DNA of 64,000 nucleotides, taken from the IMG/VR virus record IMGVR_UViG_3300044609_000960, positions 62,001 through 126,000 of that record. One strand, 5' to 3'. Position 1 is the first letter of the stretch; each line of letters opens with the position of its first letter. The translations under genes were made by a program, and so were the position numbers. The DNA is from a virus. Below, piece after piece: positions 3 to 46,451 of the stretch. The notes below the pieces were generated by a model. That model saw only the letters and a list, made by a program, of their open reading frames with translations. It was not told where the DNA came from and ran no database searches.

Positions 3-908
3 GTATACTATTCTGGTCAAGATTTTGCTAATCGATTGGCAAAAGTTTCAAAAGCAAAGTCTTCAGATAATACAAAAATGCGGGCTATTGGCGTAGCTTT
101 AAAAAACATATCCCCAGGATCCAGAGGTGTTGTTGTCCTTCTTGGTGAGGTAGGAGGGTTTAATACTTCTAATCTTCCCGGTGCATTACCAAATAACACT
201 AGTAATCTTGGTAGAGTTGTTTATGTTGGGGAGAATGGGGGCCTAACATTCTCACAGCCTAATACGTCTATTGGAGACATATCACAACAGATAGGAATTT
301 TAATTAGAGAAGATGCAACAGATGGGGCGATTATGGTCAACCACCCCAGTTCTTTTGTTTCTTTACCATCTCTACCTGAGAATTATATTTGGGCAGGAAT
401 CACAAATGATATTGCAATTGCTCATTACCTACTACCAACTACGTTCCAAAGAACCTATGATAATTTAACTGATACATGGAAAATAGGACTTGCTGATAAT
501 ATTGAATTTGGGGGATATAGATTCGCATCTGACGGAGAAAATTCTTCTAAAATTGAGACATTTGTAGATACAACTCAGGTCCCCTTTGATTCCTTTAGTC
601 CATTTATTGTCGAGAAATTTTCTACCTCGTATCGTTCTGCGAAGTATATTGTTCAGGTATCTGGCTCTAGTGCAGATGGAACTGACTCTATGGTCTATCA
701 AGTAGGTGAGATACTTATTGTCCATAATGAAACCAATGCTTTTGTAGTTGAATATGGTATGGTAAGTACATACCTCGATGAGAGACTGGGTCAATTTGAT
801 GCGTATATAGATACTCAATCTTCAGAAGTGGTCCTTACATTCCAGAAATTTCCTCTTGTTGTCGATAATGTAGAGCTTAAGACAGTCCGTACCTCAATCT
901 TAGTTTAA
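3..908 (+). CDS. Partial virion/tail-fibre-like protein (3' portion)
   Basis: The frame is open from base 3 with no stop before 906-908, so the gene begins upstream of the window; about 301 codons are visible. An in-frame TTG at 36 is not needed as a start. The visible protein is beta-rich with no signal peptide or membrane segment. It contains a segment near residues 40-95 rich in Gly, Asn and Val (pattern GRVVYVGENGG) of the kind seen in phage fibre and decoration proteins. Its stop codon lies inside the GTTTAAAG element that precedes the next fibre gene. Its place directly upstream of two giant fibre genes on the same strand suggests a tail-fibre or adhesin role. I do not recognise a specific family, so the role is inferred from context. 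Confidence 0.6.
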   Translation, partial: VYYSGQDFANRLAKVSKAKSSDNTKMRAIGVALKNISPGSRGVVVLLGEVGGFNTSNLPGALPNNTSNLGRVVYVGENGGLTFSQPNTSIGDISQQIGILIREDATDGAIMVNHPSSFVSLPSLPENYIWAGITNDIAIAHYLLPTTFQRTYDNLTDTWKIGLADNIEFGGYRFASDGENSSKIETFVDTTQVPFDSFSPFIVEKFSTSYRSAKYIVQVSGSSADGTDSMVYQVGEILIVHNETNAFVVEYGMVSTYLDERLGQFDAYIDTQSSEVVLTFQKFPLVVDNVELKTVRTSILV

Positions 909-910
909 AG
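903..910 (+). promoter_or_regulatory. GTTTAAAG late-promoter-like element
   Basis: An exact GTTTAAAG ends 45 bases before the ATG at 956. It overlaps the stop codon of the upstream gene and is followed by AT-rich sequence. It matches the octamer found before most transcription units in this window. Promoter function is inferred from this recurrence. Confidence 0.55.
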
Positions 911-6900: not shown

Positions 6901-8119
6901 TGCAACTTCCGGTGGAGATAATGTAAAGGTCTCTAGTACCAAGTTTGTATTTAACCCAAGTACTTCAAGAATTGGACTTGGTACTCCCTCGCCGGAAGCT
7001 AAACTAGATATAAGAGGCGACGGGAACGTATTGAATCTTGCACCAGATACTAGTGGAAGTTACACACTTATAAATTTCAATTCCAGAGTTAACTTTGGAA
7101 GCGATAAGGGATTTATTCTAACACAAGACGAAAGTTCAAACTGTGTTGGAACAGGCAATGAAGATCTACGTATGGTCATTGGTGTTCACAATGACTTTAG
7201 AAGCAACACAACTCACTCGGATGAACTATGGTTCCAAGGTGGCGGAAGATTAGTACAGAATGTGGGGTCATGGGATAGTGAACTTAATACTATTATAGGA
7301 ACACCGGGAGCAGGAACTGCAAATGGTGGTCCTCAATATGAATGGAGAATTAACAACTCTCCAGTTATTAACATTTTAAATAATGGAAATTTTGGTATTG
7401 GGATTCAAAATCCTGGACATAAATTATCTGTTAATGGTGATTTTAGAATTTCATCTACAGCCAATCTTGGAACAACTGCGGGTAACTCATTAACTCTAGG
7501 AGATATTACCTACTCCAATGGCAATCAAAGTTATTTTAGATTTAAAGCAACAAGACTAGCGGACGGAACTAATTGGACTACAGCTTCTAATAAAATAGTA
7601 TGCGTTACTGATGTTACAGAGCAAGGTTATATTGAATTCAATCCACCTAATGATAATTACGGCATTGGATTAGGTCAAGGATCTAATGAGTACCTAAGGA
7701 TAAAAAATGGTGGCAATGTTGGTATAGGAACTACAAATCCCGGCTATAAACTTGAGGTCAATGGGTCATTTGCTGCCACCACTAAGTCGTTCGTCATCGA
7801 TCACCCAACCAAACCCGATCATAAACTCCGTTATGGATCACTCGAAGGTCCTGAAAATGGCGTCTATATCCGTGGTAGGTCCAAAGAGTTTGTCATAGAA
7901 TTACCAGAATACTGGACAAAACTAGTCGATCCTGACTCAATCACTGTCAATCTCACCCCTATCGGCAAAACTCAAACGCTCTGGGTTAAAGATATAAGAG
8001 ATAATAAGATCTATCTCGGATCAAAATGTTCCGAGATCAATTACTTCTACATGGTGCTTGCGGAGCGGGCTGATGTAGATAAGCTTGAAGTTGAGATTCC
8101 TAATGGCAATAGCTTATAA
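956..8119 (+). CDS. Giant tail-fibre protein, 2387 aa, with beta-helix module and cyanophage-type C-terminal domain
   Basis: This long fibre has several recognisable parts. Residues about 524-815 resemble a pectin-lyase-like parallel beta-helix, opening with a DGNDNNDGS / RTIKKA pattern typical of such modules in phage fibres. Three copies of a repeat with an HG(Y/F) motif, then YY(V/I/F) and NT(F/I)xL, begin near residues 859, 1470 and 1550. A GGSGY repeat lies near 1374. Collagen-free fibre linkers follow near 1649 (SGTIATTRLA) and 1790 (GGTGHSSYTNGQLLIGN). The last about 110 residues, from KSFVIDHP to the end, match a domain I know from marine cyanophage fibre C-termini (LRYGSLEGPENGVY, then ELPEYW, then TVNLTPIG). 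There is no S74 chaperone signature here, unlike two other fibres in the window. It probably forms a trimeric host-contact fibre. Confidence 0.8.
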   Translation: MATNRRFNVRHGLSAGTGTLLKDVVTNNGTLVDVGELSGLDTSSRSTIVQAINEVNTIATDTSQALQSAGEPNGFENRLHSEISFQNSIRTFTISPNSTDGHTSYYVWAGGVRRQIVNNLTISLPTTTGLYYIYFNSSGNLSHRTSYFDLKIDTPVAYIYWNAVTETAELFGDLRHDATLDWSTQRYLHDTFGVVVSSGFNLQGYTLEGDGSLDSHAQVGLANGTIHNADIVVTVTHSATPVLGDFEQKLSFPAEIPVMYQSGATGIWTVDGATTYPIKTSGTTIQYNVNNAGAWSTQPLTSGYYMSTWLLVSTNLEYPILSLLGQNQYATQGEAEASDFDDLDLTNIPTKDLKPIWKLVWRSDSTYPNSPNAILVNAIDLRSTVGKGVGDHGLLTGTDDDDHLQYLHVSNSRSGITANISTSGTLQTSNTTQSSISTEGGAYIAEKLGIGVLLPSVELEVDGDAKIDSLGLLGNNSYRTYINSGQSLTSDITYDLPSNYGVNGQTVVTDGNGNLTWGSSYFAGSTSIVVSAADGNDNNDGSLLPVRTIKKACQLAANKAKPVCIFVKAGDYTEQNPIIVPDDVSIVGDSLRSVIIRPAIPKADILRLRNGSYLTGLTFRDALDEEGVPDFTWRYIVAFDDPFDTSVSRAGYTGLPSTKPTITRSPYIQNCSIISFLGGSGVIVDGSKVVTPNIPDNPEEAERPTIGAVPEQGKSIVANAFTMLSFGGTGWRVVNDGYTQVVSCFQIFCKNGTYCQGGGYASITNSATNHGLYALRSQGYRAESFNFDRGYISALSIVDNKQTMQVLGTGREVINHYILKFYNTGTNTEITSQFKQTPIEKVFDPNIDVDYATNVITYNNHGYINRQQVIYSANGGAEITGLFDETVYYVNVIDPNTFKLFDDEELSSEVDLETGTYTQTHKLITNLEEFFVDGVIEYHNFYQELTLSAGSYTFNKGEIVIGTSLTTTSSGTVWSWNSSTNKLIVSVNKVLVAGQQVRQQFTNGMTLQDHSVTPVTATVNTNFRREDLYTSLFKTNSTSPGNSIQNFENLEGKDIHLHRPSIVNSSAHTWEYAGSGMDYNALPQNGAKSIPAYEQFQNLPGRVYSSGTNELGDFKIGDSIVAENRTGNIFFKQTVTVGELSSLKLTISDITIEEISTDVGLGDNEVGGASNSRLSTQFAIRGFLDQKLGSFQGKTVSTNSIPGSVVQLNSSGKINLDLIPAVRTFNTYKFEGQDSRLEAYLDVPPVEVLAGDFVTESVSGSDTTYVLQSDDISQYIVIDPAETINLTGITQIHGVISNADGIIDTSFGTNGLVSGIVNNTSITNGGSLYTPSTGTVTYKNITLTNITVAGTPSGAKATIIVTDGVVTLVDMTRGGSGYAVGDILSANSADIGGTGANFRLTVTGVERRLYIDLAGEKRKFVANSVAPDFISDADSPSKTLTNTYSSVTNFSAEATPTGAIDVANDQFVITNHGFTNGDLIFYSSGVNIPVGGLLSQTSYYIKVINTNTIELFTSYDLNPSNKVQISSTSTGTHSFTVYGVSTDKDTIYLTSHGYTTGDAVRITGTGLPAGLFSGNYYFIGSITTNTFTLHESKSAALDSINGVTNSEVNFTSQGTSTTTFKSLDVRIIGALNTSCKESDNWSFLSGANIDASNIVSGTIATTRLATSGTANTDTFLRGDQTWSYAVQSVYIDPNNSNGLQLSNGGTHLITGGITAYHGNVKLEIDNVNGTETRTAGFTNIGVAAFNTEQFNVSVVGDVSVKNGVIDAGTLDGQDSTYYLDPSNLISAIPVDRGGTGHSSYTNGQLLIGNSNNTLTKATLTPTTDQTTITNGSGSVTLGLATNVTTSRFTSTVASGTSPLTVTSNTLCANLNSDLLDGQEGTYYLNYSNFTNTPDLTKTLTMNTSGIGLSGSATYSANTASNITFTVTSNATAVNTASTIVSRDASGNFSAGTITANLTGTASLVGITDDTSTNTTHYIHFGDATSGGDNVKVSSTKFVFNPSTSRIGLGTPSPEAKLDIRGDGNVLNLAPDTSGSYTLINFNSRVNFGSDKGFILTQDESSNCVGTGNEDLRMVIGVHNDFRSNTTHSDELWFQGGGRLVQNVGSWDSELNTIIGTPGAGTANGGPQYEWRINNSPVINILNNGNFGIGIQNPGHKLSVNGDFRISSTANLGTTAGNSLTLGDITYSNGNQSYFRFKATRLADGTNWTTASNKIVCVTDVTEQGYIEFNPPNDNYGIGLGQGSNEYLRIKNGGNVGIGTTNPGYKLEVNGSFAATTKSFVIDHPTKPDHKLRYGSLEGPENGVYIRGRSKEFVIELPEYWTKLVDPDSITVNLTPIGKTQTLWVKDIRDNKIYLGSKCSEINYFYMVLAERADVDKLEVEIPNGNSL

Positions 8120-8753
8120 TCCTCAGATAGTTACAAGTGGTTTAATACTCTGCCTGGATGCAGGGAACACAAAATCCTATCCTGGCACTGGGATCACTTG
8201 GATTGACTTGAGTGATAATAAATACATAGCCACAATGAGAAATCTTACATCGTCAAATTGGGTTTTAATCGACGGACAAAGGGCATTTGAAACAAATGAT
8301 ACACCTAATCAAGGATTTACTATATCCAATTTTGTTAGACCCGGTACTCAGAGGACATATAGTATTTGGTTAAAATCAAAATCATTTTCTATTGGATGGC
8401 AGACTTGGTTTGATGATGAAAATGAAAGAATTTTATTTGGAACTCAAACAAATACAGTTCATATTTATCCAGATGTTAATTTATCAGCAAATTTACAAAT
8501 TAATACTTGGTATAATTTAGCATATACTTTATCAGGGACAACTGCTATTGGATACGTAAATGGAATTTCTATAGGAAGTGGAACTTATACCACGGCATTA
8601 TCAGGTGGAACAGGAAATTTATGGATATTAGGCGACCCTGGAGGTGAGGTTACAAGTTGTTATTGTTCCTGCGCCTCGGTCTATAATAGGGCACTTACAG
8701 CATCTGAGATCCAGCAGAACTTCATCGCTCTCCGCGGCCGTTTCGGAATCTGA
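8103..8753 (+). CDS. LamG/concanavalin-like fibre-associated protein
   Basis: A protein of 216 residues if started at the ATG at 8103, overlapping the end of the giant fibre by 17 bases. An upstream in-frame TTG at 8085 would add six residues but overlaps more. Residues about 10-35 carry the GLILCLDAGN / TGITWIDLS pattern that opens many LamG-like (concanavalin-like jelly-roll) modules of phage tail proteins. Near the C-terminus the pattern YNRALTASEIQQNF is the usual closing motif of the same fold. Such modules bind carbohydrate or act as fibre tips. Its position between two giant fibres supports a receptor-binding or fibre-accessory role. A short Cys-rich CYCSC motif occurs near residue 190. 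Confidence 0.75.
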   Translation: MAIAYNPQIVTSGLILCLDAGNTKSYPGTGITWIDLSDNKYIATMRNLTSSNWVLIDGQRAFETNDTPNQGFTISNFVRPGTQRTYSIWLKSKSFSIGWQTWFDDENERILFGTQTNTVHIYPDVNLSANLQINTWYNLAYTLSGTTAIGYVNGISIGSGTYTTALSGGTGNLWILGDPGGEVTSCYCSCASVYNRALTASEIQQNFIALRGRFGI

Positions 8754-8761
8754 GTTTAAAG
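8754..8761 (+). promoter_or_regulatory. GTTTAAAG late-promoter-like element
   Basis: An exact octamer whose last base is 29 bases upstream of the region before the ATG at 8791. It begins immediately after the stop of the LamG-like gene. Its last base is also the first base of a strong stem-loop. Confidence 0.6.
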
Positions 8762-8785
8762 ACACTATATATAGCGTATAGTGTC
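8761..8785 (+). other. Leader stem-loop directly after the promoter-like octamer
   Basis: GACACTATA (8761-8769) pairs perfectly with TATAGTGTC (8777-8785), giving a 9-bp stem with a 7-base loop. It sits between the octamer and the ATG at 8791. No T-tract follows, so it is not a typical terminator. It is more likely a 5' leader structure of the fibre mRNA or a protein-binding dyad. No Shine-Dalgarno sequence is visible between it and the ATG. Confidence 0.55.
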
Positions 8786-8790
8786 ACTCC

Positions 8791-11700
8791 ATGGCAGCAT
8801 CCGACAAGAATATTTTAATCTCACCTCAAAGGGGTTCGACTACTCAGGTCCCCTCTATTGTCTTCACTGGAGATGGTAATGATCCGATTACTCTTAGAGT
8901 ACTTGATGGGGTTCCTGGTGCCTTAAGCTTTGAGGGAGGTGCAGGGCAATTATTTAGTCTCACCGATAATCTTACCTCTGGATCCATCTTCTCTGTTAAT
9001 GATGTCTCAGGGCTTCCTAGTATTGATGTAAATGCTTCAGGTCTTATTCAAATCGCCCCATTGGGGGGAACTGTAGCAATAGGTAAAAGTACTGTTGTAG
9101 CCGGAAGAACCGTTGATATCAAAGGAAATACACATATCGATGGTACATTAACAAGTACTGATATTAGATTTTCTATTATCTATGATTCTAATGACTCAGC
9201 TTATTATGCTGATTTTAATGGAACAACTAGACTTAATAATCTCCATTCAAACATAGCTACATTTGGTTCTAGGGCTAATAGCTCAAATTTTGGTGGGAAT
9301 ACTGGCGGTCTGTCTGGTGTATCTCAGGTACTCGAAGTTAGGGCTAATGGAAGTATTCCATTAATGACCTGGCATTATGAGAACATAGCTACAAGGCACA
9401 TAGGTCTAGACTCTTCTGGATTCTTACAAGTCTATAATCCCAATGAAGCTGGGGGATCTGTGCTTCAGGCCAACTCGAGTCTAAGAGCTCCCATCTTCTA
9501 TGATTCTAATGACACTGGATATTACATCGATCCCAACTCGACCTCAAACTTTGTTAGACAATACTTAACTTATAATAGCGCCTCTGGACTAGCTAACGGC
9601 TCATTCAATGTCTCTTCTGCCACTATAGGTGGATTACATTTTACAAACGGAAGCGGTGTTAGTGGAAGTGGTAATCAAGCAGCTATAACATTTATGGGAA
9701 GTTCAGCTTCCCAGGCTCAAGCGGGAATCTACGTCCATAACAATAATTCCGAAGGAACTCACATGGCTCTCTGTACTACAGATAGCTATGCGACTGGACC
9801 ACAGATAGGACTTAGAATAATGAATAGTGGTTATTCACTATTCCCTAGATCCTATGTTGAGGCGACCGGGTCATTTAGAGCTCCGATATTCTATGATTCT
9901 AATAATACTGGTTACTATGTCGATCCAGCTTCGCAGACTAATCTCAACTATCTGAGATTAGCAAATAATAATTCAATTTATTTCTCAACAACATTAACTG
10001 CCGAATTCAACCACGACAGTGATTCCACTCCTGTCGCCTTTAACATGATCAAGAGCGGAAATAGTATTACTGATAGTAATAACTATGGAGTCCTTTCTCT
10101 TGTAAGAAGAAACCATAATAACTCTGCAACTTCCGCCGGTGCTGGCCTCTACTTTGTCCTCAAGGATGATGGTGGCACTGATAGAGAATACGCCGGGATC
10201 TACGGAAAGAAAACTGTTGCTGGGGCGTCCGGTGGCGAGTTAGTGTTCATGAACTATGGCAGAAATGAAGTTGCCTATTGTAATTCTGATTTCTTCTCGC
10301 ATACTTCGGATATAAGAACACCGATCTTCTACGACTCAAATGATACAGGGTTTTATTTAGATCCAGCTTCTAAATCCAGATTAAACACTCTGTCCCTATC
10401 TGACGATAGAACCCTCTCCTACCCTGGAATCCTAAACCTTGGCAGCATCTCATATAACTACAACTTCCTAAACGGATCTTGGTCTTCCTCTATCACGGCT
10501 GGGATCATGGCGCATTGCGCCGATCAATGGGAAATTGCTATCCATGACTCCGGTACTAGAGTAGTATCTCCGTTCCTATTTGATGGAGGAAGTAATCACC
10601 GATTACTCATGGGTCGCGACATTGGATGGGGAACAATGTATATCGAGGCGGCTAATTCATTTAGAGCGCCTATTTTCTACGACTCTAATGACACTGCGTA
10701 CTATCTAGATGCCGCTAGTTCTACCACGTCGCTCTCGATCGCTGGCGCAATAGAGCAGGGTCCTAATTTCGCCCATCCAAACATCGAATGGAGCGCCTCA
10801 GGAACCTCCACCGGAATGGTGATTTTCCGTCTTCCTGGTGGAACTGGGAACTATGGCATGGTGCATATGGTATTCGATTATTACGAATACAATAGCCCTA
10901 GGACTGCAACTATTATCGTTGGTGGACATAACTGGAACGGAGCTTGGTATAACGTTGCATGTAATGTTGCAGGATTTATTGATAAAATAGTACGAGTTGG
11001 AGTTAAGGACGGGCAATATTGCGTTGTATTTGGCGAAGCAGGAAGCTCTTGGAGTTATGGCACTATTAGACTAAGAAAGATTCACAATGGTTCTTTCTAT
11101 AATAATATTATGGATTTAGGGGGCGTTTATTCGGCTTCCCAAACAACAACCGAGTCTTTTTCTAATATTTCTGCGGATATAAGAGAATCAAGAACTTCTG
11201 GGGCATTTATTGCATCTACAATAACTGCTTCTACGTCTGCTTCGGCTCCAATTTATTACGATTCTAATAATACTGCTTATTACACTGATCCAAATGGTCA
11301 ATCTTCACTTTGGGGCGTCGCAATAAGAGGGGACTATGGGTCCACGAACACTGATAATCAAATTTTCTTTTGGGGCGCTGGAAATACAACTACTTCTGCG
11401 ATAGGATTTAAAGCAAATGGCGGATCCTTTGGAAATCCTACAGGAACCGGTGATGGATATAACACGTACTTTACCATGGATACCGATGGTAGGGGATGGG
11501 TGTTTAGAAGAGGAGTTGGTGGAACTGATTTCAATTCTGCCTACAATTCTGGATGGATTTTAAATAATGGCGTTTGGCAAGCAAATAGCAGCATGAGAGC
11601 GCCAATATTTTATGATTCGAATAATACCGGATATTATACAGACCCAGCTTCAACATCAATTTTAAATTCATTAACAATAAATGGTACATTAAATGCATAT

Positions 11701-15455: not shown

Positions 15456-15463
15456 GTTTAAAG
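15456..15463 (+). promoter_or_regulatory. GTTTAAAG late-promoter-like element
   Basis: An exact octamer 27 bases before the ATG at 15491, four bases after the stop of the previous gene. The sequence after it is AT-rich. No Shine-Dalgarno sequence is visible before the ATG. Confidence 0.55.
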
Positions 15464-19313: not shown

Positions 19314-19321
19314 GTTTAAAG
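19314..19321 (+). promoter_or_regulatory. GTTTAAAG late-promoter-like element
   Basis: An exact octamer 43 bases before the ATG at 19364, in the gap between divergent genes. Between it and the ATG is the perfect 14-base palindrome AAACCTCGAGGTTT (19342-19355). Confidence 0.55.
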
Positions 19322-19363
19322 TTACTTAGACCTATAAACTAAAACCTCGAGGTTTATTACCTG

Positions 19364-19672
19364 ATGGCTCTCAATATTAAAGATTTTGAGATTTCAAAAA
19401 CGTTTAACAACGTAGTTCTCACAACTGTAACAGGTTCTCCAGATACCGATGGAGTCCCTACTATCTCCATCCCTTCCCTACTCGAGGGATATACTCAACT
19501 CCGCGCCCAAGGCCGACTCCAAGATGGATTTGGCACAGCGATCCCTCTGGTTCTTTCACGTAACCTTATTGAGGTGGAAGCGGATCCTCTTTCTGCGAAC
19601 TCCGTAATCCGTAGGCGCGATATGCACGCTATTCGTGCTCAACAATACATTCATAATCTTATCTGGAGCTGA
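19364..19672 (+). CDS. Small structural-region protein, 102 aa
   Basis: The N-terminus MALNIKDFEI matches that of the 144-aa protein at 15018 (MALIKDFEI), so the two may share a virion-docking segment. The C-terminus is helical and basic (RRRDMHAIRAQQYIHNLIW pattern). It is the first gene of a plus-strand run controlled by the octamer at 19314 and is followed nine bases after its stop by the next gene. No enzymatic motif is seen. Function is unknown, probably a virion or tail component. Confidence 0.65.
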   Translation: MALNIKDFEISKTFNNVVLTTVTGSPDTDGVPTISIPSLLEGYTQLRAQGRLQDGFGTAIPLVLSRNLIEVEADPLSANSVIRRRDMHAIRAQQYIHNLIWS

Positions 19673-20294: not shown

Positions 20295-20302
20295 GTTTAA
20301 AG
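20295..20302 (+). promoter_or_regulatory. GTTTAAAG late-promoter-like element
   Basis: An exact octamer 23 bases before the ATG at 20325. A 6-bp stem-loop (20306-20322) follows within four bases. Confidence 0.6.
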
Positions 20303-20305
20303 TAA

Positions 20306-20322
20306 CTAAGACTAGCTCTTAG
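20306..20322 (+). other. Leader stem-loop before the tailspike gene
   Basis: CTAAGA (20306-20311) pairs with TCTTAG (20317-20322) across a five-base loop, ending two bases before the ATG at 20325. There is no room for a normal Shine-Dalgarno sequence. The short stem alone is not strong evidence, but its position repeats that of the hairpins at 8761 and 38671. Confidence 0.35.
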
Positions 20323-20324
20323 AC

Positions 20325-22658
20325 ATGAGATACATACCTGATACAGGAAAGCAATTTGTCCTTCAGGTCCCCGAGGATAAAAATTCTTACATTAATGTAA
20401 AAAATTATGATGCTAGGGGACTCTCCACGGTATTTACTGGGAGTATTTTTTCTGGACTTGAAGACCAACTATCGATTGGATCTATTTCCGATGGTGAAGG
20501 AAAGACCCTTCAGCAATATCTAGACGTCCTTTCCGTCGGAATTGAACTCCAAGCGCATATTTACAGAGGTGTAGGATCTGGAGGAGGTGATCTTCCCATC
20601 ATCTCTGTGTCAAATGTAAACCTACAAGGGGTAAATTTTTCTAGTTCGAATGTTACATCGAATCTTATTCAACCCCTTAAGTACTATATCTTTGGCTACG
20701 ATACCTCCACGGGTAAAATGCCAAATGCTGTGCAAATTGTAGGCGCAGAAGGTCAATATTCTAAGGTCCTTGATCCTAATAATTGGAATCAAGATCAATA
20801 TGTAGATATTAATTTTACAAAAACAGGTCAATACGTAGTTCCTATTATCTACAGAGTTTGGGGAACTAGAGTTGAATTCCTAGGGATGATAGGCAATGCC
20901 AAGATCGGCTTCCCTGGGGCATCAGTTCTCACCTTTAGAGATTATGGCCTCAAAGAAATCCCAAGTTGGAATAATGATCCTGACTATTGGACACCTGATT
21001 TTCTTGATAGTGTAATCTCCATTCTTGGAGGTGTTCCAACACAACTCAAGAAAATTGTTGGTAGAGAGCATCTTAAGATCATGCCACGCATCGAAGGTTC
21101 TCAACCAAACTATATTCAATGTAAGGCTGTTCCTGATGGTTCTTTGATTAATCCCGAGGATTATCAATTTGGCGATGAGGTAAAATTTGTTATTGATGAC
21201 ACTCAGCCTATCCGCAATGCTATTAACTTAGCTGCTCAAGGTAATATCAAAGAGATCTTTTTCCCTGCTGGAACTTATCACTTTAGAAATTCCTCTTTCA
21301 TCAATACTGCTTCCACAGATTATAGCAATATTTCATTTAGAGGAATTGGAGAAGGATCTATAATAAAAAGATTGAGATCTAGTATTTCTGGATCAATTAA
21401 CCCTGGCCTTATTAACTTTTCTGGACAAGGTAGTTCGGCAAGTGTAGAAGGAATTAGGTTTAGATCTTTGGTTTTTGATGGAAACCGTTCATCAACTGCG
21501 TCACTAATCGGACCTATAGCAGGATCTATCGACCCTTCGAGATATATTGCTGAGACCCTCATATTTTTAAAATACGCAAATAATATCTCAGTAACAGAAT
21601 GTAGATTTATTGACGCCGGAGGAGCTGGAGTTCATACGGAGTTTTGTTCTGCTATCCTGCTCACTAATAGCATATTTAGTCGTCTTGGTAGATCATATGA
21701 GCCAGAGGTTCGTCCTATCGAGGTATATGAGACATCAAATTCTATTGTCCAAGGAAATATTTTTGAGTTCTGTACTTCTGGCCCATATTTCTTTAGCGTA
21801 GACTTTTCCACAATTAATAACAACATCATCCGTTCTTGCGGAGACCAAGGAGTAGTTCTTGAAACTTCGTATCAATGGAACGCAGCCAATAACCTAGCTT
21901 ATTCAGACACAGACTCCTTAATCCGTTCTGTAGATCAATATAATAATGAATACTCTAAGGCTCCGATTGAGATCCGTAGAGGCACTGCTCTTGAACCAAT
22001 TTACTTCACCGTAACAAATGGTGGTGAAACTATTGGAATTAAGAAAGACACTATTATTGCCGATATCTACGGGTTAGACGCTCTAGGTAGAAAGAATGCT
22101 TCAAATAAAATTGGATCATTTAAAGTTATTCAGACTGCCGACCAACTCGAAGCTGGAATCTTTTCAGTTACTCTACCTGGATTACAATCTGCCACAATCG
22201 ATGGCAATACAGTTCCTTCTACATCAAGTTTCTCTCTTCTAGACCCGGGTAGTAATCAATTTGGGTATATGTATGAGATCTCAGGTACTGTACGTCTAGG
22301 ATCTTCTGGCAGAGGGTATGTCCCAGTAAATATCCGAAATGCAAATATCGGTGGTACAAACTACCTTGCAATTCAACTCAGAAATTCTTCTGAACTACTC
22401 TCATTCTTAATTTTTGATGCGGATAGTGCGGAGAATGACTACATCATCATTGAAGGATTCTCAAATACCGATCTTGATGGATGGGATCAAAATTCTGCTT
22501 ATAGAGTTGTTGGTGTAGACATCAATAGTAATTCTCTCCTCATCGATCCAATCCCCAGCTTATCGCCAGGGACCACCGGAGTAGATTTCCTTGGAGGTCA
22601 ACTCTATATCCAACGTTCTAATTACCAAATTGCCGACGGCAACATTATCGTAAACTGA
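20325..22658 (+). CDS. Beta-helix tailspike-like protein, 777 aa
   Basis: Residues about 289-320 carry IDDTQPIRNAINLA then KEIFFPAGTYHF, the standard opening of pectate-lyase-3-type right-handed beta-helix tailspikes. Long rungs rich in Asn, Ile and Val follow (patterns such as NNISVTECRF, SNSIVQGNIFEF and INNNIIRSCG) to about residue 520, then beta-rich C-terminal domains. The first about 280 residues look like a virion-attachment region (YINVKNYDARG). This fold in phages usually binds and often cleaves surface polysaccharide. I cannot assign catalytic residues, so the depolymerase role is possible rather than shown. Confidence 0.75.
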   Translation: MRYIPDTGKQFVLQVPEDKNSYINVKNYDARGLSTVFTGSIFSGLEDQLSIGSISDGEGKTLQQYLDVLSVGIELQAHIYRGVGSGGGDLPIISVSNVNLQGVNFSSSNVTSNLIQPLKYYIFGYDTSTGKMPNAVQIVGAEGQYSKVLDPNNWNQDQYVDINFTKTGQYVVPIIYRVWGTRVEFLGMIGNAKIGFPGASVLTFRDYGLKEIPSWNNDPDYWTPDFLDSVISILGGVPTQLKKIVGREHLKIMPRIEGSQPNYIQCKAVPDGSLINPEDYQFGDEVKFVIDDTQPIRNAINLAAQGNIKEIFFPAGTYHFRNSSFINTASTDYSNISFRGIGEGSIIKRLRSSISGSINPGLINFSGQGSSASVEGIRFRSLVFDGNRSSTASLIGPIAGSIDPSRYIAETLIFLKYANNISVTECRFIDAGGAGVHTEFCSAILLTNSIFSRLGRSYEPEVRPIEVYETSNSIVQGNIFEFCTSGPYFFSVDFSTINNNIIRSCGDQGVVLETSYQWNAANNLAYSDTDSLIRSVDQYNNEYSKAPIEIRRGTALEPIYFTVTNGGETIGIKKDTIIADIYGLDALGRKNASNKIGSFKVIQTADQLEAGIFSVTLPGLQSATIDGNTVPSTSSFSLLDPGSNQFGYMYEISGTVRLGSSGRGYVPVNIRNANIGGTNYLAIQLRNSSELLSFLIFDADSAENDYIIIEGFSNTDLDGWDQNSAYRVVGVDINSNSLLIDPIPSLSPGTTGVDFLGGQLYIQRSNYQIADGNIIVN

Positions 22659-33494: not shown

Positions 33495-35258
33495 ATGGCC
33501 GGACTTTATAGTAAGAAAAATCTTGGTGAGGTACAATTAAACCTCAAGGACGCTTTACAAAAACTTTACGCTCCAGGTATCCAAGAGGATATTAGATTAT
33601 TTGCATTTTCTAATTCGCTATATTCTGAAATCCGGTCTGGTATTACAAAGATAGATGCGAGCACTGGGGAAGAAATTGACGTACCTAATGAGATCTTTGG
33701 TCTAATCAACGAACCATTTACAGATGATAATGGTAATGTTATTAATAGAACAAAGTTTATCACAAACAGACTAACTTTCTCTAGTAATAACAGAGTATTT
33801 TTTGAAACTATTTCCAATGCAGGATTCACTTTTGATAGAAGAACCTCTTTTACCGAAGGTGCTCCTATAATAGTATCAAGAAATGGTTCGATTGTAAACT
33901 TAGAAGTTATTGGATCTGGATCGCAATATGAGGTTATCTCATCTGCTGGACAAATAGTACCAGGTCCTGTAACTATTCAGGTTAATGTACGTGGTAAAGA
34001 ATCCGGTGCAGAAAACGCAGTTGTTGAAGTAACTATTGATGCTAATGGATCTATTTCTAAAACCTCACCACCATCTGTTATTTCTGGTGGCTCTGGTTAT
34101 TTTGAAGAGGAGGACCTTGAGTTAATAACTCAATGTAGAACTAATAGATTCGGTCAAGAAGAAACCCCTAGTTTACATAAATGTAAAAACTATCCGACTT
34201 CTGGTAATAGATTATTCCATAGACAATTTAAATATACCGTACCTTCAGCTGGTCAACAAATTGATTATAGCACCTCCTCGTTAGGATATCTTGCTACATT
34301 ACGTCAAACAAAATACTTCTATCTTACAAAAGATGCCAGTGAAGAGGGATTTTTCCTATTCGACGAAAGATCTTTGAAATGGGTTTATCTTGGTGATTTT
34401 TATGATCAGCAATACGCTATAGAATTAAGGACATCCCCTCTTCTTACTATGAGGAGATATGATACTATTTCTTCATTAAATTTACTAAATTTAGATTCTT
34501 TAGACTCTAGTTCATTCTTCTTCTCCTATAGAGAAGGGTTTGGTGTAGCTGATAATTTAGGATCTCAGATTAGGGCCTCTTCCCAAAACGTAGAAAGTAT
34601 TAGAGACTCATTTAAGTATCTTTTACAAAATAACAAACGGCAACGACTAGTAACAGACGAAAAAAATACCCTAGGAACTCAATTTAATATCTTCGAAGGT
34701 AAAAACTTTGATAGCACTTTTAGGATGATTATGCGTGATCCTGATGGTGTAGTGGATAGGAGCGACGTAGAGTTTTTTGAATTAAATTCTCTCGAAGGTC
34801 CAGATGAGGTGGAGTTAACTGCAGGGGGTGTTACATATCATATCCCTGGACTTTATCTTAATGTGGGTGGAGTGTATAAAAGAGCTTTTAGTACAGATGA
34901 TAAACCTTTCTTAAGCTCTAGAGGAAAAGTATATATCAGTCCTTTGATTGATAAAATCAATGGGTCTACTAATTACGCGACTGGAAGTTTTGTACCTAGA
35001 AATCCATCTGGTGATAATAAGTACTCTATTTCTACTGCCTATTTACGCTCTGGTGGAGAGGTGCTTGTTGGATTTGATACAACTATAGGAACATTGGTGC
35101 AAAACTTATCCTCCTCAAATAAAAATGGAGGATTTGTGTTCCATAGAGCTTTATCCACACCCACAATTAATTCTGGTAGTGGGATACAGGGATGGCCATT
35201 ATTTGACTATGAAAACCAAGGAGTAATATACTCCCCGGTTATTTTAGGCTATACCTGA
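33495..35258 (+). CDS. Virion structural protein, 587 aa, with GGSGY motif
   Basis: A beta-rich protein with no membrane segment. It includes a segment near residues 125-205 with paired patterns LEVIGSGSQYEVIS and VISGGSGYFEEEDLEL. This is the GxGSxY repeat also found in the giant fibre (near residue 1374) and in the 240-aa protein at 40647. N-terminal residues 1-60 are helical (GEVQLNLKDALQKLYAPGIQEDI). The gene ends the plus-strand run and overlaps the convergent minus-strand 1136-aa gene by 15 bases; no terminator hairpin is visible there. It is likely a tail component. Confidence 0.65.
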   Translation: MAGLYSKKNLGEVQLNLKDALQKLYAPGIQEDIRLFAFSNSLYSEIRSGITKIDASTGEEIDVPNEIFGLINEPFTDDNGNVINRTKFITNRLTFSSNNRVFFETISNAGFTFDRRTSFTEGAPIIVSRNGSIVNLEVIGSGSQYEVISSAGQIVPGPVTIQVNVRGKESGAENAVVEVTIDANGSISKTSPPSVISGGSGYFEEEDLELITQCRTNRFGQEETPSLHKCKNYPTSGNRLFHRQFKYTVPSAGQQIDYSTSSLGYLATLRQTKYFYLTKDASEEGFFLFDERSLKWVYLGDFYDQQYAIELRTSPLLTMRRYDTISSLNLLNLDSLDSSSFFFSYREGFGVADNLGSQIRASSQNVESIRDSFKYLLQNNKRQRLVTDEKNTLGTQFNIFEGKNFDSTFRMIMRDPDGVVDRSDVEFFELNSLEGPDEVELTAGGVTYHIPGLYLNVGGVYKRAFSTDDKPFLSSRGKVYISPLIDKINGSTNYATGSFVPRNPSGDNKYSISTAYLRSGGEVLVGFDTTIGTLVQNLSSSNKNGGFVFHRALSTPTINSGSGIQGWPLFDYENQGVIYSPVILGYT

Positions 35259-38200
35259 TAGTAGAGGAGAGGCAGAGTTGAGAGGATTCTGCCTTGCGTT
35301 AACGAATAAATAATAAGTATCCTTTACCTTTTCTTGATTACCAATATGGACATATACATCCTCATCAAATGAGGTTCCATCTTGTTTGAAGATAGGAAGT
35401 TCAACTTTAATTCTATGGGTGTAGTCAGACTCCGCTAGAGTTTTAGATGAAACAGTGATAATACCTGTTGGATTATCTGTTATGGAATAAGAAAATTCGA
35501 TCTTTTCTGAAACATTGAGTCTTTTACCACCGAGATCGGACAGAGTATGATCTCCCCAGAAAACATCGTAATTACCAACCGGCGTTGATGCGTTGTATAA
35601 AGTCGAGTCACTTACTGCTATATCTTGTAATAGTACATCAGATATCACATAAGGAGGATAGCAGATTCCATTGGTATAGTTTGTAGGTTGGTCGTATCCA
35701 AAAGGAGTGACTCTTTCCGCAGGGACTTTAGGAATCTCACTCTGAGAAGATACAAAGTTGCCGGATTGGTATGTTACCTTTAATGTATCAGAGAAACTAA
35801 TCGACTCTCCAGTATCTACTTTGGCGAATTGGAATGCTATATCTGCCTCTAAAAAGAACTTAACAAACTTTGTGTCTAATGAAGTCCGTGCTGGTTCAAA
35901 TGGTGTTCCAAAAGCTAATAACCAAATCTCATTAGTTCCTAGCACCCCATCATCAGCCAAGAATGTTTCTGTTGATGTGTTGTATTTAACTCTTTCTACG
36001 CTTAGAACTAAAGGAGCAACAAATCCTTGGACATTTGTAGTGAATGCCAAATCATCCGCATTAGCAATTGCATTGACAATAATAGGTTTATTCCAGTCGC
36101 TCTCACTTGCAAAGGCAGGTAACCCGTATGTAGTTGGGTTATCTGAAACAGTGACTATTGTCAAATCCGCGTGAAGATAAAAACGTGGGGACCCCTGCGT
36201 TCCTTTCCAATACATCCTTGCAATACGCTCTGTTACATTCCCAGCAGCAATTGTCTGATGATTTGGACTACCACCAAGATCATTTGCTCCAAGAGCATCA
36301 ACAGAATTAAACAGGGCATTATTAACCGGAATACCAGTAAATTTAACTATGCCTCCCTCACCTAACAAATTAGGCATTAGTCTCATGCCTATATAGTTCG
36401 ACGATGAGGCACTGGTGGGATATTTTGCCTCACCTAAGATAAGGTTTGGTCTGGAGGTATATGTTGCAGGATTTAGACCATTTCCGTAGAGTCCTATTCC
36501 ATCAGCATTAGATTTAAGAACGCTCTTAAAGCTATTATTAACAAATCCATCGATAGGATCATTAGTCTTAGAGATAGGTTGATCATAGAGATATCTATTT
36601 CCTTCACTAACCTTCCACCATTGCGGGCGTGCATCAAACTCGTATTTATAGATACTCGGTTCGAAATTTATATTAATGAGATCGTCATAGCCATTATAAT
36701 CATCCTTAGGAGATACAATGGTAGAGCTCCAAAGAGTATATCGTGAGTAATTATCTCTGTTGGGAACTATTTGAAGTACGTAGTTACCTGGTCCATTTAC
36801 TGGAGCCAAGGGATTACCACTTCCGTCAATAAGATAGATTACATTGGATACTAGACTTAGCCTAACATCTTGAGGAGTATTTAAAGGGACTGTAATTGTA
36901 ACTGTTTCTTGTATAGGATTACCATTATTATCCTCTCCAATAACCCTTGTAATTTGCTGATCAAATGCAACTAACTGATATCTGACTGAAGAAGTGCTAT
37001 CTAAAAGAATAGCCTCTATGTCAATAGTTGCTTCTGAGTCTGGAGTAACAATAGTATTAGGAGATACTTCTGAGATTGTAACATCAAGTTCTCCAGAGTA
37101 GAATTTATCAGTGATATTAGGAGTTGTTTCTGATACCCCATACTTAATGAAAATATTAGGTTCTGTAGGAACTTCTAATTCACTATCAGCTTTATCTGCC
37201 CCGCCATTCCACATTCTAATGGAGATGGGAACGTATCTATACCCTGTTGAACCAGATGTATTTGTTTGATATATAAATCTACTTGGAAGATTATCCAAGT
37301 TAAAACTCACACCTGAGATATATCTATCTCCCTCTTGAATGAATTTTGCGTTCTTATTTTCATCGGAAGAGTTAAATACTTCAGTCCATACTGGTACTGA
37401 ATTTGTGCCTCCATTAATAATATCGATTTTTAAAGAAGTATTTGTTTCAACTTCAAAAATATATTTCTTATCTACGCTATCATTATCAAGACGTAAAAAT
37501 CCGTCCCATCTAACTCCCCAGTTATCTTGATTATCTCTTAGCACTCTTGGAGGTCTTGAGAACCTCATGTTAGAGTCTTTGACTATGTTATTTCCGTCAT
37601 ATACGTATCTATCGACAACTGGTATCCGAGTTTCTATATAGGATCCTGAGTTAAAATATTCCTTTTCAGAATAAAGTTTAAAACCACCCTGCCTAAATTC
37701 TAATAAAGATAGAGATGTTACTGGGTTTATGTCATCCGCGCTATAAGAAACATTATTTCCAGAATCGTTAGGAGACTCTAGGAACCAAAGTGGTGGGTTT
37801 AGGACAGAATATGCTCTTGAGAAAGTATATACAGTATTAACAAATTGAGAACCAATAATTGCTTTAAGTTCTTTTAATTTATTAAGAGAATTTTCGTCAT
37901 TAGCTAAATATGCTCTAGTATATACAACCTCACTATTTACAATACTCGATCCAGTTACCTCACTCTTGATTGTTATATCTGTGCCAACTAAAGAGATTTC
38001 TCGCCCTGTTGACGGATTTACGTAAGATTTTAATGTCCATACAAGAGTATTAGGAGTATTAATTTGCTCATCAAAAGAATCTTGTTGTTGAGGTAAGATA
38101 CTAAGTTGATTTAAAGTAACAACCCCGGTATTCTCATTAAAAGAAGTGAACTTAAAAGTACCAAATTCTTGATCAGTGCCTGGTGTTGCACGATAGAATA

Positions 38201-38654
38201 GCGCGGTAGGTCCTGCATGAAGTCCATCTAAGGTCCCTTTGCCAGTAAAGGAATTAATTTGATCTATTCTATCCTCTACCCTAATTCTAGGATTAGTTGA
38301 TACAGTAGCACCTGCAATTCCACCGGCGATACTAATCCCAGAGAGGGGTGTTAGGAAGGAGGATGTAATTTCATTGCTTACAAAGTCTCTAGTTATTTCA
38401 AAATCTTCTGGCTTATATGTGCCATAAATAGAGATCTCATTCGCATCATCGACTCTTGTAACATACTCTAAGACATTTGTAAGGGCCTCACCAGGATCAT
38501 CCAGGTCTCCTAAGGCATTATTCCTCAGAAGACCCACATAATTAATATCATTAAGTTTCCTACCGGCCCTACGAAGTAGGAAAGATTGTAGAGCCGAGTA
38601 GTTATTAGCAATATCTAAATTCTGGGAGACCTTTTTGTCTATTCTGGTTGCCAT
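35244..38654 (-). CDS. Large virion structural protein, 1136 aa, with PA14-like region
   Basis: Residues about 375-490 (NWGVRWDGFLRLD, then YIFEVETNTSLKIDI, then YVPISIRMWNGG) resemble a PA14 domain, a beta-barrel often used for carbohydrate binding. The N-terminus (about 1-60) is helical (NYSALQSFLLRRAGRKLNDINYVGLL). Beta-sandwich-like segments follow. Near the C-terminus is a YDVFWGDHTLSDLGGKRLNVSEKIEFSYS pattern (key residues W-G-D-H). No protease or chaperone motif is seen. The gene has its own octamer and leader hairpin. A tail-fibre or baseplate-appendage role is inferred. Confidence 0.65.
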   Translation of the reverse strand: MATRIDKKVSQNLDIANNYSALQSFLLRRAGRKLNDINYVGLLRNNALGDLDDPGEALTNVLEYVTRVDDANEISIYGTYKPEDFEITRDFVSNEITSSFLTPLSGISIAGGIAGATVSTNPRIRVEDRIDQINSFTGKGTLDGLHAGPTALFYRATPGTDQEFGTFKFTSFNENTGVVTLNQLSILPQQQDSFDEQINTPNTLVWTLKSYVNPSTGREISLVGTDITIKSEVTGSSIVNSEVVYTRAYLANDENSLNKLKELKAIIGSQFVNTVYTFSRAYSVLNPPLWFLESPNDSGNNVSYSADDINPVTSLSLLEFRQGGFKLYSEKEYFNSGSYIETRIPVVDRYVYDGNNIVKDSNMRFSRPPRVLRDNQDNWGVRWDGFLRLDNDSVDKKYIFEVETNTSLKIDIINGGTNSVPVWTEVFNSSDENKNAKFIQEGDRYISGVSFNLDNLPSRFIYQTNTSGSTGYRYVPISIRMWNGGADKADSELEVPTEPNIFIKYGVSETTPNITDKFYSGELDVTISEVSPNTIVTPDSEATIDIEAILLDSTSSVRYQLVAFDQQITRVIGEDNNGNPIQETVTITVPLNTPQDVRLSLVSNVIYLIDGSGNPLAPVNGPGNYVLQIVPNRDNYSRYTLWSSTIVSPKDDYNGYDDLININFEPSIYKYEFDARPQWWKVSEGNRYLYDQPISKTNDPIDGFVNNSFKSVLKSNADGIGLYGNGLNPATYTSRPNLILGEAKYPTSASSSNYIGMRLMPNLLGEGGIVKFTGIPVNNALFNSVDALGANDLGGSPNHQTIAAGNVTERIARMYWKGTQGSPRFYLHADLTIVTVSDNPTTYGLPAFASESDWNKPIIVNAIANADDLAFTTNVQGFVAPLVLSVERVKYNTSTETFLADDGVLGTNEIWLLAFGTPFEPARTSLDTKFVKFFLEADIAFQFAKVDTGESISFSDTLKVTYQSGNFVSSQSEIPKVPAERVTPFGYDQPTNYTNGICYPPYVISDVLLQDIAVSDSTLYNASTPVGNYDVFWGDHTLSDLGGKRLNVSEKIEFSYSITDNPTGIITVSSKTLAESDYTHRIKVELPIFKQDGTSFDEDVYVHIGNQEKVKDTYYLFVNARQNPLNSASPLLSGIA

Positions 38655-38670
38655 AATGGGGCACTATGCA

Positions 38671-38686
38671 GTATCTATAAAGATAC
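38671..38686 (-). other. Leader stem-loop after the promoter-like octamer
   Basis: GTATCT (38671-38676) pairs with AGATAC (38681-38686) across a four-base loop. Read on the minus strand, the stem begins with the last base of the octamer, just as at 8761. It lies in the leader of the 1136-aa gene. Confidence 0.45.
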
Positions 38687-38693
38687 TTTAAAC
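38686..38693 (-). promoter_or_regulatory. GTTTAAAG late-promoter-like element (minus strand)
   Basis: CTTTAAAC on the plus strand reads GTTTAAAG on the minus strand, 32 bases before the ATG at 38654. It lies four bases past the phoH stop codon. Confidence 0.6.
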
Positions 38694-39539: not shown

Positions 39540-39547
39540 CTTTAAAC
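39540..39547 (-). promoter_or_regulatory. GTTTAAAG late-promoter-like element (minus strand)
   Basis: It reads GTTTAAAG on the minus strand, overlapping the gap after the 115-aa gene stop and lying upstream of phoH. The distance to the preferred phoH start at 39425 is long (about 115 bases); to the alternative ATG at 39482 it is 58. Confidence 0.5.
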
Positions 39548-39928: not shown

Positions 39929-39936
39929 CTTTAAAC
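39929..39936 (-). promoter_or_regulatory. GTTTAAAG late-promoter-like element (minus strand)
   Basis: It reads GTTTAAAG on the minus strand, 31 bases before the ATG at 39898, in the 144-base divergent gap before the kinase gene. Confidence 0.6.
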
Positions 39937-40042: not shown

Positions 40043-40612
40043 ATGCCCTCTTATCCTAAAACAATCGTGGTCCTTGGAGCAGATCGAGTCGGAAAATCCA
40101 CTACTGTAGAAAACACATATAAAGATCTTGTAGAAAAGGATATCTGTGTCCGTTCTCTCCATTTCTCTGGTCCTCAGCCACACCATCATAGCCCCATTCA
40201 ACAATACCTTGATCCCTTCCAAGCAGCATTGGAAGAAAAAGCCCAGGTTGTTCTCTGTGATCGTGGATTTTCCGAAGTTTGTTTTTATGAGAAATTCCGA
40301 CGTCACATCGATATCTCTGAAGAATGGGCCAATAGCGCAGAATCATTCTTCGCCTCTTATAGCTCACTGATCAAAGTATTTTTGATTGAAAGGGACTGGG
40401 AATGGAGCCTCCCATTGCACATCATCGAGATCAATGAGTTATATCCTGGTTGCTCTGATTACTTTATGAATATGCAACTTCAAGCCCGAGAAAAAGAGCA
40501 TGAGGAATACTATGAATATATGAAAGACTATCTCACATACCGTTCTCTTCTTTCTGACATCACTATTCTCTCCCCGCCTGACAAGTCTTTCTCTTTGGCC
40601 GACGTAGTTTAA
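40043..40612 (+). CDS. Deoxynucleoside-monophosphate (thymidylate-type) kinase, 189 aa
   Basis: A P-loop GADRVGKST lies at residues 12-20, followed by a small phage-type kinase fold. VVLCDRGFSEVCFYE (about 69-83) supplies the DR motif expected at the substrate or Mg site, and VFLIERDWEW lies near 113-122. A helical LID-like segment rich in Glu/Tyr (about 150-165) follows. Thymidylate or deoxynucleotide monophosphate kinases supply dNTP precursors for phage DNA synthesis, acting in the cytoplasm. Exact base specificity cannot be read from the sequence. The gene is flanked by virion genes but has a different promoter style, consistent with earlier expression. Confidence 0.7.
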   Translation: MPSYPKTIVVLGADRVGKSTTVENTYKDLVEKDICVRSLHFSGPQPHHHSPIQQYLDPFQAALEEKAQVVLCDRGFSEVCFYEKFRRHIDISEEWANSAESFFASYSSLIKVFLIERDWEWSLPLHIIEINELYPGCSDYFMNMQLQAREKEHEEYYEYMKDYLTYRSLLSDITILSPPDKSFSLADVV

Positions 40613-40614
40613 AG
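40607..40614 (+). promoter_or_regulatory. GTTTAAAG late-promoter-like element
   Basis: An exact octamer overlapping the stop codon of the kinase gene, 33 bases before the ATG at 40647. It would start a late transcript covering the hub operon 40647-45068. Confidence 0.6.
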
Positions 40615-45069: not shown

Positions 45070-45768
45070 CTAACCATAATACTTAGCACCTTTGGCTAAA
45101 TTAGCCTTAGCACTTAAGGCTTGAAGTTGAGCATTCATTGCGTGATAATCAAACCAACTCTCAGCAAGGGTTGTGTCTTTAAAGTAACATTTAGTTCCTC
45201 TACAATGTACATCAATCCGTTCCAAATCTATCTTTTCTTCCCTACACCATTCTTCGACTAAGTTTTTAAATGGATAGGTGTGGTCGATATGGAACTCACC
45301 TGAGTTAATGAATTCACCACTCATCGCGCATTTTAATGGTTTTCTTTTGAGTTGGCGATTTACACTGAGTCTAAATGTTTTAATTTGAGGCTCGATGATT
45401 TGTCTCATCGCTATAAGTGCCTCTTTTTTATTTTGCTTATATTCGGGGATAGCTATTGCCCTAGGGAAAAGTTCATCAGTGACTTTACCTTTCCCCAGCC
45501 AAATTTCCCTCTTAGACCTAGAGGTAATCATCACAATTCCTCTGACGGCCTTACCTTGAAACTTCTTATTGCGTATCTTGTACTTTACCTCGCCACGATC
45601 TTTAATCGCCTTCCATTTAGGAATCAGATCAATAACCTCATCAAGGAAATCCTTATCTGTTCCTTTTACAAAGTAGTTAGATTCTGTTCCATAGACAACT
45701 TCTGTCCACTTTTTTTCGAACCCTCCCTTCGTGTATTCGTTTCCTTGGATGGATATGACGCGTCGCAT
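45070..45768 (-). CDS. DUF3223 (DCL-like) domain protein with HNH-like C-terminus, 232 aa
   Basis: Residues about 10-95 resemble DUF3223: YFVKGTDKDFLDEVIDLIPKW, then GEVKYKIRNKKFQGKAVRGIVM (key residues KKFQGK). This module is known from plant DCL proteins, Pol IV/V tails and some phage proteins. The C-terminal part has CAMSGEFINSGEFHIDHTYP (His-Ile-Asp-His) and later DYHAMNAQLQALSAKANLAKG, an HNH-like layout with one CxxSG start. It could be a nuclease or an RNA-binding protein; neither is proven. Its first 34 codons overlap the sigma factor gene in another frame. It ends one base from the convergent Lys-tailed gene, with no terminator visible. Confidence 0.65.
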   Translation of the reverse strand: MRRVISIQGNEYTKGGFEKKWTEVVYGTESNYFVKGTDKDFLDEVIDLIPKWKAIKDRGEVKYKIRNKKFQGKAVRGIVMITSRSKREIWLGKGKVTDELFPRAIAIPEYKQNKKEALIAMRQIIEPQIKTFRLSVNRQLKRKPLKCAMSGEFINSGEFHIDHTYPFKNLVEEWCREEKIDLERIDVHCRGTKCYFKDTTLAESWFDYHAMNAQLQALSAKANLAKGAKYYG

Positions 45769-46451
45769 AGTATAAATTCGATAAGTTGTTCTGAATATTT
45801 CTTGATATCATCAGCATTTTTAAGATGAGGATTCTTTCTAACCAAGGTAGATACAGAACGTTTTTTAACTAAATAGTCAGTAAGAAAAGTTTCATCAACT
45901 GGGTCTAGATCAGTGATTTTATGGAGAAGGTCACGATGGCTCATCATAAAGTCCCCCATTGTCATCTCTGATTCATACTCTGGTTCAATGATGTTCGAGT
46001 ATTCAGTAACCTGGGAAAAACTCATTGCAAATGCTTGACGTACTGCACGGATTTTTTTAACAGATACCTGGATTTTTTCGGCGATCTGCTCATCGGTAAT
46101 GTCTGGATCAGTAGTTGTATATTTCCTAATCTTTAAATAAAGATCGGAATATGATCTGGGGATCTTTACCAATCTAGAATTATCTCTGAGATAATTTAGC
46201 ATATGAAACTGTAAACATCTATTCACCCAGGTAGAAAAATTTGCACCTTTACTCTGATCCCAAGAGTCATAGATTTTTACAATATACTCAAGGGCGGCGT
46301 CTCTAAGTTCTTCATAAGGAAGCCCTGTAAAACTTGAGATTTTTTTCGCTACCTGCGAGGCCTTCCACATTTGGGAGATGATTTGCTCATCTCGTTCTGA
46401 TTTTTGCCTACGTGATTTACGACGTGATTGCTTATCTTGTTCTACAGTCAT
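45666..46451 (-). CDS. Sigma-70-family RNA polymerase sigma factor, 261 aa
   Basis: Residues about 43-98 match sigma region 2: LPYEELRDAALEYIVKIYDSWDQSKGANFSTWVNRCL, then LNYLRDNSRLVKIPRS (key blocks YDSWDQSKGANFSTW and RLVKIPRS). Region 3 appears near 116-140 (DITDEQIAEKIQVSVKKIRAV), and a weak region-4-like helix set near 180-225. The N-terminus is a Lys/Arg-rich tail. The start overlaps the thioredoxin-like gene stop by four bases (ATGA). It would redirect host RNA polymerase to phage promoters. The repeated GTTTAAAG element is its natural candidate target, but that link is an inference. The C-terminal about 34 residues are low-complexity and overlap the DUF3223-like gene. Confidence 0.8.
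   Translation of the reverse strand: MTVEQDKQSRRKSRRQKSERDEQIISQMWKASQVAKKISSFTGLPYEELRDAALEYIVKIYDSWDQSKGANFSTWVNRCLQFHMLNYLRDNSRLVKIPRSYSDLYLKIRKYTTTDPDITDEQIAEKIQVSVKKIRAVRQAFAMSFSQVTEYSNIIEPEYESEMTMGDFMMSHRDLLHKITDLDPVDETFLTDYLVKKRSVSTLVRKNPHLKNADDIKKYSEQLIEFILCDASYPSKETNTRREGSKKSGQKLSMEQNLTTL

Follow-up and report, generated by a model that had tools for sequence, protein, structure and literature searches.

Hairpins that begin at the last base of a candidate late-promoter octamer in S-TIM5-like cyanophages

Introduction

The closest described arrangement is that of phage T4, in which the e, soc, 49 and I-TevI mRNAs carry inhibitory structures over the initiation region (PMC3014915). Long early RNAs of gene e form such a structure and yield approximately 100-fold less lysozyme; the RNAs from the late promoter, in which the 5′ portion is absent, are well translated (PMC3014915). 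The same hairpin logic as in gene e applies to I-TevI (PMC2988022). In the T4 leaders, the outermost paired base of the gene e hairpin is the final base of TATAAATA, the late-promoter octamer, and the soc hairpin begins two bases later.

Polymerases with sigma-70-family factors start transcription 6–9 nt past the −10 element. Hairpins at the end of an mRNA can also serve another purpose, and the Escherichia coli ompA leader is an example of a 5′-terminal stabilising stem-loop.

The window analysed here, a stretch of 64,000 nt, comprises bases 62001–126000 of the 159,262-bp virus record G000. An earlier note on this DNA had described four structures next to copies of an octamer, GTTTAAAG, and had suggested that, if transcription starts just after the octamer, late mRNAs would have a stabilising 5′-terminal hairpin. 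These structures were compared with the T4 arrangement and with the equivalent leaders of related phages.

Experimental procedures

Octamer leaders were collected from G000, S-TIM5, S-TIM54 and 17 IMG/VR relatives, plus extra loci (39 sources). The 264 leaders comprised 219 distinct leaders, 172 below 80% identity, and 50 downstream-gene families. The position of a stem is given as its offset from the last base of the octamer (offset or register 0). For the arm-swap null, the 5′ side of one leader was paired with the 3′ side of another, so that local composition was preserved. Folding energies of individual leaders were compared with dinucleotide shuffles. Masking was measured as the predicted cost of opening positions −15 to +3 around the start codon. 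The purine peak past the octamer was used as a proxy for the start site. This proxy was calibrated on T4 late promoters, in which the purine peak (80%) lies 6 nt past TATAAATA.

Results

The large terminase of G000 is 69–71% identical to those of cyanophages S-TIM5 and S-TIM54 (Aurunvirus; hosts, marine Synechococcus), and the gene order around it (tail fibres, PhoH, baseplate, terminase) matches S-TIM5. No DNA near-identical to G000 was found in the phage collection searched.

GTTTAAAG is the top gene-start-associated intergenic 8-mer in both G000 and S-TIM5. It lies no more than 80 nt upstream of an ORF start in 24 of 34 copies in G000 and 23 of 36 in S-TIM5 (1.4–1.5 expected), with typically 20–32 nt between octamer and start codon. 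In S-TIM5, 18 of 27 octamer sites stand before genes with a structural or packaging annotation, compared with 47 of 212 genes overall (p ~1e-7). Upstream of the octamer there is no second conserved element and no −35 element. The downstream sequence is AT-rich and contains an ATA[GT]A motif. This motif is diffuse and its spacing is not fixed, and a second promoter element downstream of the octamer was rejected on that basis. No Shine-Dalgarno consensus is visible in the octamer leaders.

Divergent gene pairs carry back-to-back octamers, CTTTAAACTTTGAGTTTAAAG (Table 1). These octamers stand at gene junctions without an upstream transcript; the octamer therefore fits a promoter, and an RNA-processing site was rejected. 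A gene for a phage sigma-70-family factor lies close to the terminase gene and is conserved there in 28 aligned sequences. The structure model of this factor matches solved sigma factors over almost the full length (Foldseek probability 1.0; pTM low, 0.38), and its sequence aligns with cyanobacterial SigA and FliA rather than with T4 gp55. A phage sigma factor and a conserved element upstream of structural genes, as in a sigma-70-type late promoter, are thus both present. GTTTAAAG looks like a single-element, −10-like late promoter of S-TIM5-like cyanophages and is likely read by the phage sigma factor. It resembles the T4-like late promoters (TATAAATA, gp55) in having a single conserved octamer, no −35 element, AT-rich sequence downstream and a purine peak at a fixed distance. 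It differs in the octamer itself and in a sigma factor that is unrelated to gp55 or very distant from it. No match to the gp45 clamp family was obtained in the G000 genome (search without positive control). A single-subunit RNA polymerase that initiates at the last octamer G was rejected, as the genome gave no RNA_pol family match, a weak result from a search that likewise had no positive control.

Two variants of octamer placement were observed. The octamer at window positions 63850–63857 overlaps the end of the upstream ORF, whose stop codon it contains (GTT-TAA-AG), and a stop-codon-containing octamer is also found in relatives G001, G003 and G018, before an ORF beginning VSKERSF. At G000:C1:8321 and S-TIM5 8047, approximately 100–210 nt separate the octamer from the gene downstream of it (psbA in S-TIM5), and both a hairpin and a TATAAT element of host type come after the octamer.

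Table 1. Positions of the octamers, structures and genes discussed (window coordinates unless a source is named)
Feature	Position	Strand	Remarks
Octamer GTTTAAAG	8754..8761	+	Upstream of 2074-aa tail fibre gene; directly after stop of co-directional ORF 8085-8753
Octamer GTTTAAAG	38686..38693	-	Upstream of 1136-aa gene
Octamer GTTTAAAG	20295..20302	+	Upstream of 777-aa gene at 20325
Octamer GTTTAAAG	19314..19321	+	Upstream of 102-aa gene at 19364
Octamer, intergenic	903..910	+	Gene at 956; register-0 stem not strong
Octamer, intergenic	15456..15463	+	Gene at 15491; stem not strong
Octamer	39540..39547	-	Upstream of PhoH gene; register-0 stem not strong
Octamer	39929..39936	-	Upstream of 115-aa gene; 5-bp stem with G.U, 7-bp in relative G001
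Octamer	40607..40614	+	Upstream of 240-aa gene at 40647; stem 4 bp only
Back-to-back divergent octamers CTTTAAACTTTGAGTTTAAAG	G000:C1:54888-54908; S-TIM5 57041-57061		Conserved between both phages
Hairpin GACACTATA-TATAGCG-TATAGTGTC	8761..8785	+	From last G of octamer; 9 Watson-Crick pairs and one inner G.U
Hairpin GTATCT-TTAT-AGATAC	38671..38686	-	6 bp; same register as 8761-8785
Stem CTAAGA-CTAGC-TCTTAG	20306..20322	+	6 bp; offset 4; ends 2 nt before ATG
Palindrome AAACCTCGAGGTTT	19342..19355	+	Core of wider ATAAAC...GTTTAT inverted repeat
Tail fibre protein, 2074 aa	8791..15015	+	C-terminal Peptidase_S74 chaperone; downstream of 8761-8785 hairpin
1136-aa gene	35244-38654	-	By position, counterpart of S-TIM5 gp116 (virion structural)
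Sigma-70-family factor	45666..46451	-	Counterpart of S-TIM5 gp108 / S-TIM54 SigF

The four structures of the earlier note are all present where it placed them, with the pairing, register, offset and perfect palindrome that it gave (Table 1). In the comparison with shuffled sequence that it had proposed, two of the four folded better. The folding energy is −12.4 kcal/mol (z −3.3) for 8761–8795, where the 3′ arm stops 5 nt short of the ATG, and −10.2 kcal/mol (z −3.1) for 38651–38686(−). The values for 20302–20336 (−4.4 kcal/mol, z −0.7) and 19321–19375 (−6.6 kcal/mol, z −0.4) are no better than those of the shuffles. The 19342 palindrome is a separate, sequence-conserved element; the arms of the wider repeat are invariant in nine related phages. 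This repeat (window 19321–19360) separates the octamer of the 102-aa gene (MALNIKDFEIS family) from its start codon, with orthologs in G001–G004, G006, G008, G011 and G014; the loop varies, and the repeat overlaps part of a GGAG-like site.

At both the 8754 and the 38693 octamer, the upstream gene is adjacent and co-directional. The hairpins at these sites could be transcription attenuators that halt the RNA arriving from upstream and let pass the late RNA, which lacks the 5′ arm. Such an attenuator is suggested by the leader at G000:C1:126918 (L010), just outside the window, in which the octamer AAAG lies inside the 5′ arm of a terminator-like hairpin, AAAGGTCC-TATAAT-GGGCCTTT, followed by a T run. 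That hairpin is directly before the ATG, and a late RNA would lack its 5′ arm and escape the terminator. The 8754 and 38693 hairpins are AT-rich with no T run after the 3′ arm, so that the GC-rich stem and T run of an intrinsic terminator are found neither at 8761–8795 nor at 38651–38686, and attenuation at these sites is regarded as very unlikely.

Among the 172 leaders, 21 have a stem of at least 6 bp (Watson-Crick plus G.U) with its outer pair at the last G of the octamer, against 8.5 expected. When arms were swapped within genomes and families were weighted, stems of this length from this base came to 9.1 family-equivalents against 2.8 (p<0.001). The excess is also present at offset 1, is weaker at offset 2 and is absent at offsets 5–11 in the arm-swap test; for stems that extend back into the octamer, no clear excess is seen. 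The register-0 excess is robust to loop and length settings. Pairing at offset 0 gives z 4.9 with G.U included and 0.5 with Watson-Crick pairs only. Two 9-bp Watson-Crick stems occur in the 219 leaders (~0.05 expected). On the upstream side of the octamer, examined as a control, hairpins are diffuse without a register-0 peak and are probably terminators of the preceding genes.

The whole excess amounts to approximately 15 hairpins. For G000 alone, stems of at least 6 bp at offset 0 or 1 occur in 4 of 26 leaders (2.0 expected, p 0.13), and the G000-only tests span p 0.05–0.13. A second collection added 88 leaders, chiefly from portal and sheath genes, and showed no excess; most of these gene families lacked an excess in the first leader set as well. 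The pooled sets give 9.7 family-equivalents against 4.2 (z 4.2). When leaders were separated by the orientation of the upstream gene, stems of at least 6 bp in the first set numbered 21 in co-directional families and 9 in divergent families, each against 6.9 expected. The pooled raw counts were 23 against 9.5 and 12 against 11.6, respectively. At the family level the contrast between the two orientations is a trend only (p 0.09; pooled p 0.22). The register is a true but minority feature, limited to some genes, mostly those with a co-directional upstream gene.

Most of these hairpins could be coincidence, since TA-rich leaders readily give rise to short AT-rich palindromes, and the count may be inflated by a small number of lineage-specific hairpins. 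The confinement of hairpins to a minority of leaders, the shuffle-like energies at 20306 and 19342, the G000-only p values, the second collection and the rarity of conservation between orthologs all agree with this explanation. The arm-swap null, in contrast, preserves the composition of both halves and still returns a significant family-weighted result; the two 9-bp stems and the pooled z are further points against coincidence, which we consider rather unlikely. Alternatively, the structures could act as DNA-level inverted repeats, namely operators that overlap the late start and are bound by repressors, the phage sigma factor or a co-factor. A repeat placed here would straddle the expected start site, the classical position of an operator. 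The arm sequences vary from gene to gene, so one protein could not read them; together with the stronger G.U-inclusive signal at offset 0 and the restriction of the excess to some families, this makes operators highly improbable.

Comparison of orthologs gave a mixed picture. The arms GTATCT/AGATAC of the 38671–38686 hairpin are intact in a 67%-identical ortholog (L242/L243), in which the flank has changed and the octamer is GTTTAAGG. Orthologs of the same gene in G005, L021 and S-TIM5 have the stem GTAACTATA/TATAGTT[A/G]C. These ortholog hairpins are 9–10 bp long in S-TIM5, S-TIM54 and G005, S-TIM54 having the 10-bp variant, and the other orthologs show little pairing. Overall, hairpins are rarely kept between orthologs and turnover is high. 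The earlier note had read differing sequences with retained pairing as a hint of selection on structure, and had looked to compensatory changes in relatives. The first part is upheld statistically over genes. In alignable ortholog leaders there is no clear double compensatory change, and no strict case was found; alignable leaders that bear a hairpin are too few for a strict comparison. What the orthologs of the 1136-aa gene show is pairing with differing sequence, not compensatory change inside an alignable stem. Three results support selection on pairing at the octamer-end register: the outcome of the arm-swap test, the stronger G.U-inclusive signal at offset 0 and the intact 38693 arms in the 67%-identical ortholog. 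A further hairpin of 10 bp, AAGAAATGTA/TACATTTCTT, was observed at S-TIM5 136334–136391 (L151), approximately 10 nt past an octamer in the intergenic region before gp084.

No mapped transcription start was found for any S-TIM5-like phage. The purine peak lies 7–9 nt past the octamer, and we infer that the late start would be at about this distance, in or beyond the 5′ arm. The late RNA would thus lose most or all of that arm. This bears on the stabilising role proposed by the earlier note, in which a decay-slowing 5′-terminal hairpin requires a start at the last base of the octamer or just after it. A stem excess that starts exactly at this base, G.U pairs included, and the low folding energy of 8761–8795 would suit that role. 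With a sigma-70-family factor, however, the start is expected 6–9 nt past the element, as the purine peak also indicates. Stems at offsets 6–10 are not enriched and those starting at offsets 5–10 are not in excess. Divergent promoters have little or no excess, although a stabiliser would be equally useful there. The ompA-type stem-loop is similar in lying near the expected mRNA 5′ end; here the 5′ arm starts at the promoter element, and little or none of it would be left after a sigma-70-type start. On these indirect tests a stabilising role is not supported and is judged unlikely.

Shortened to an RNA with its start at offset 8, the 8754 leader has a folding energy of −4.1 kcal/mol (z +0.4). 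The predicted opening cost of its initiation region is 14.4 kcal/mol in read-through RNA and 3.4 kcal/mol in RNA from 8 nt past the octamer, and is 5.6 kcal/mol when the first 8 nt are taken from another leader. Across co-directional leaders, the first 8 nt of a leader mask its start region more than foreign ones do (z 2.4, p 0.014). In divergent leaders they mask no more than foreign ones. The distance from 3′ arm to ATG is shifted to 4–11 nt, which is not decisive for masking. The 38693 hairpin gives no masking of the start region in G000 (6.2 vs 6.3 kcal/mol) and is therefore left unexplained by a timing role. Its counterparts in S-TIM5, S-TIM54 and G005 have strong predicted masking.

Discussion

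The hairpins and their register, the statistical excess and the predicted masking at 8754 are observations on the leaders. To explain them we propose a timing model patterned on T4 genes e, soc, 49 and I-TevI, in which the transcription start, the read-through transcription and the translational effect are what we infer. GTTTAAAG would serve as a −10-like late promoter and be recognised by the phage sigma factor. In a subset of late genes, the leader would be self-complementary from the last octamer G almost to the site where the ribosome docks. RNAs entering from upstream genes would hold both arms and fold, and in the case of 8754 and several relatives the fold would mask the initiation region, so that large structural proteins are not made early. 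RNAs from the late promoter would begin approximately 7–9 nt past the octamer without most of the 5′ arm; their hairpin could not fold, and they would be translated. That a hairpin on read-through RNA keeps a late gene untranslated early, as in T4 gene e, is the most likely of the explanations considered and has in our estimate an even chance of being correct.

The likeness to gene e lies in several features. At 8754 and 38693, as in T4 e, the hairpin has offset 0 from the late-promoter octamer (soc, offset 2), so that the late-promoter element is adjacent to or in the 5′ arm. The hairpin extends as far as the initiation region, with transcription of late RNA expected to start within the 5′ arm; the genes are late genes with a co-directional upstream gene. 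The two systems differ in the promoter, GTTTAAAG here and TATAAATA in T4. The 3′ arm here contains no clear Shine-Dalgarno sequence and, as no such consensus is visible in the leaders, the target of masking is less defined than in T4. Hairpin turnover between orthologs is high here, and for this phage the ends of the late RNAs and the effect on translation are predictions.

A broader proposal is that hairpins straddling the promoter have arisen in S-TIM5-like cyanophages repeatedly, each time independently, as a general timing device by which late structural genes stay untranslated on read-through RNA, on leaders without a Shine-Dalgarno consensus. This is doubtful at present; if true, an arrangement of the T4 lysozyme kind would operate across a whole late regulon in cyanobacteria.

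GTTTAAAG and the sigma factor are concrete late promoter and sigma candidates for a widespread cyanophage lineage. A puzzling stem is turned into a testable prediction, that of a hairpin on early read-through RNA which is missing from late RNA. If the timing model is wrong, the late start site of S-TIM5-like phages would be at an unusual place. If it is right, a form of control from a few T4 genes would have arisen anew in cyanophages.
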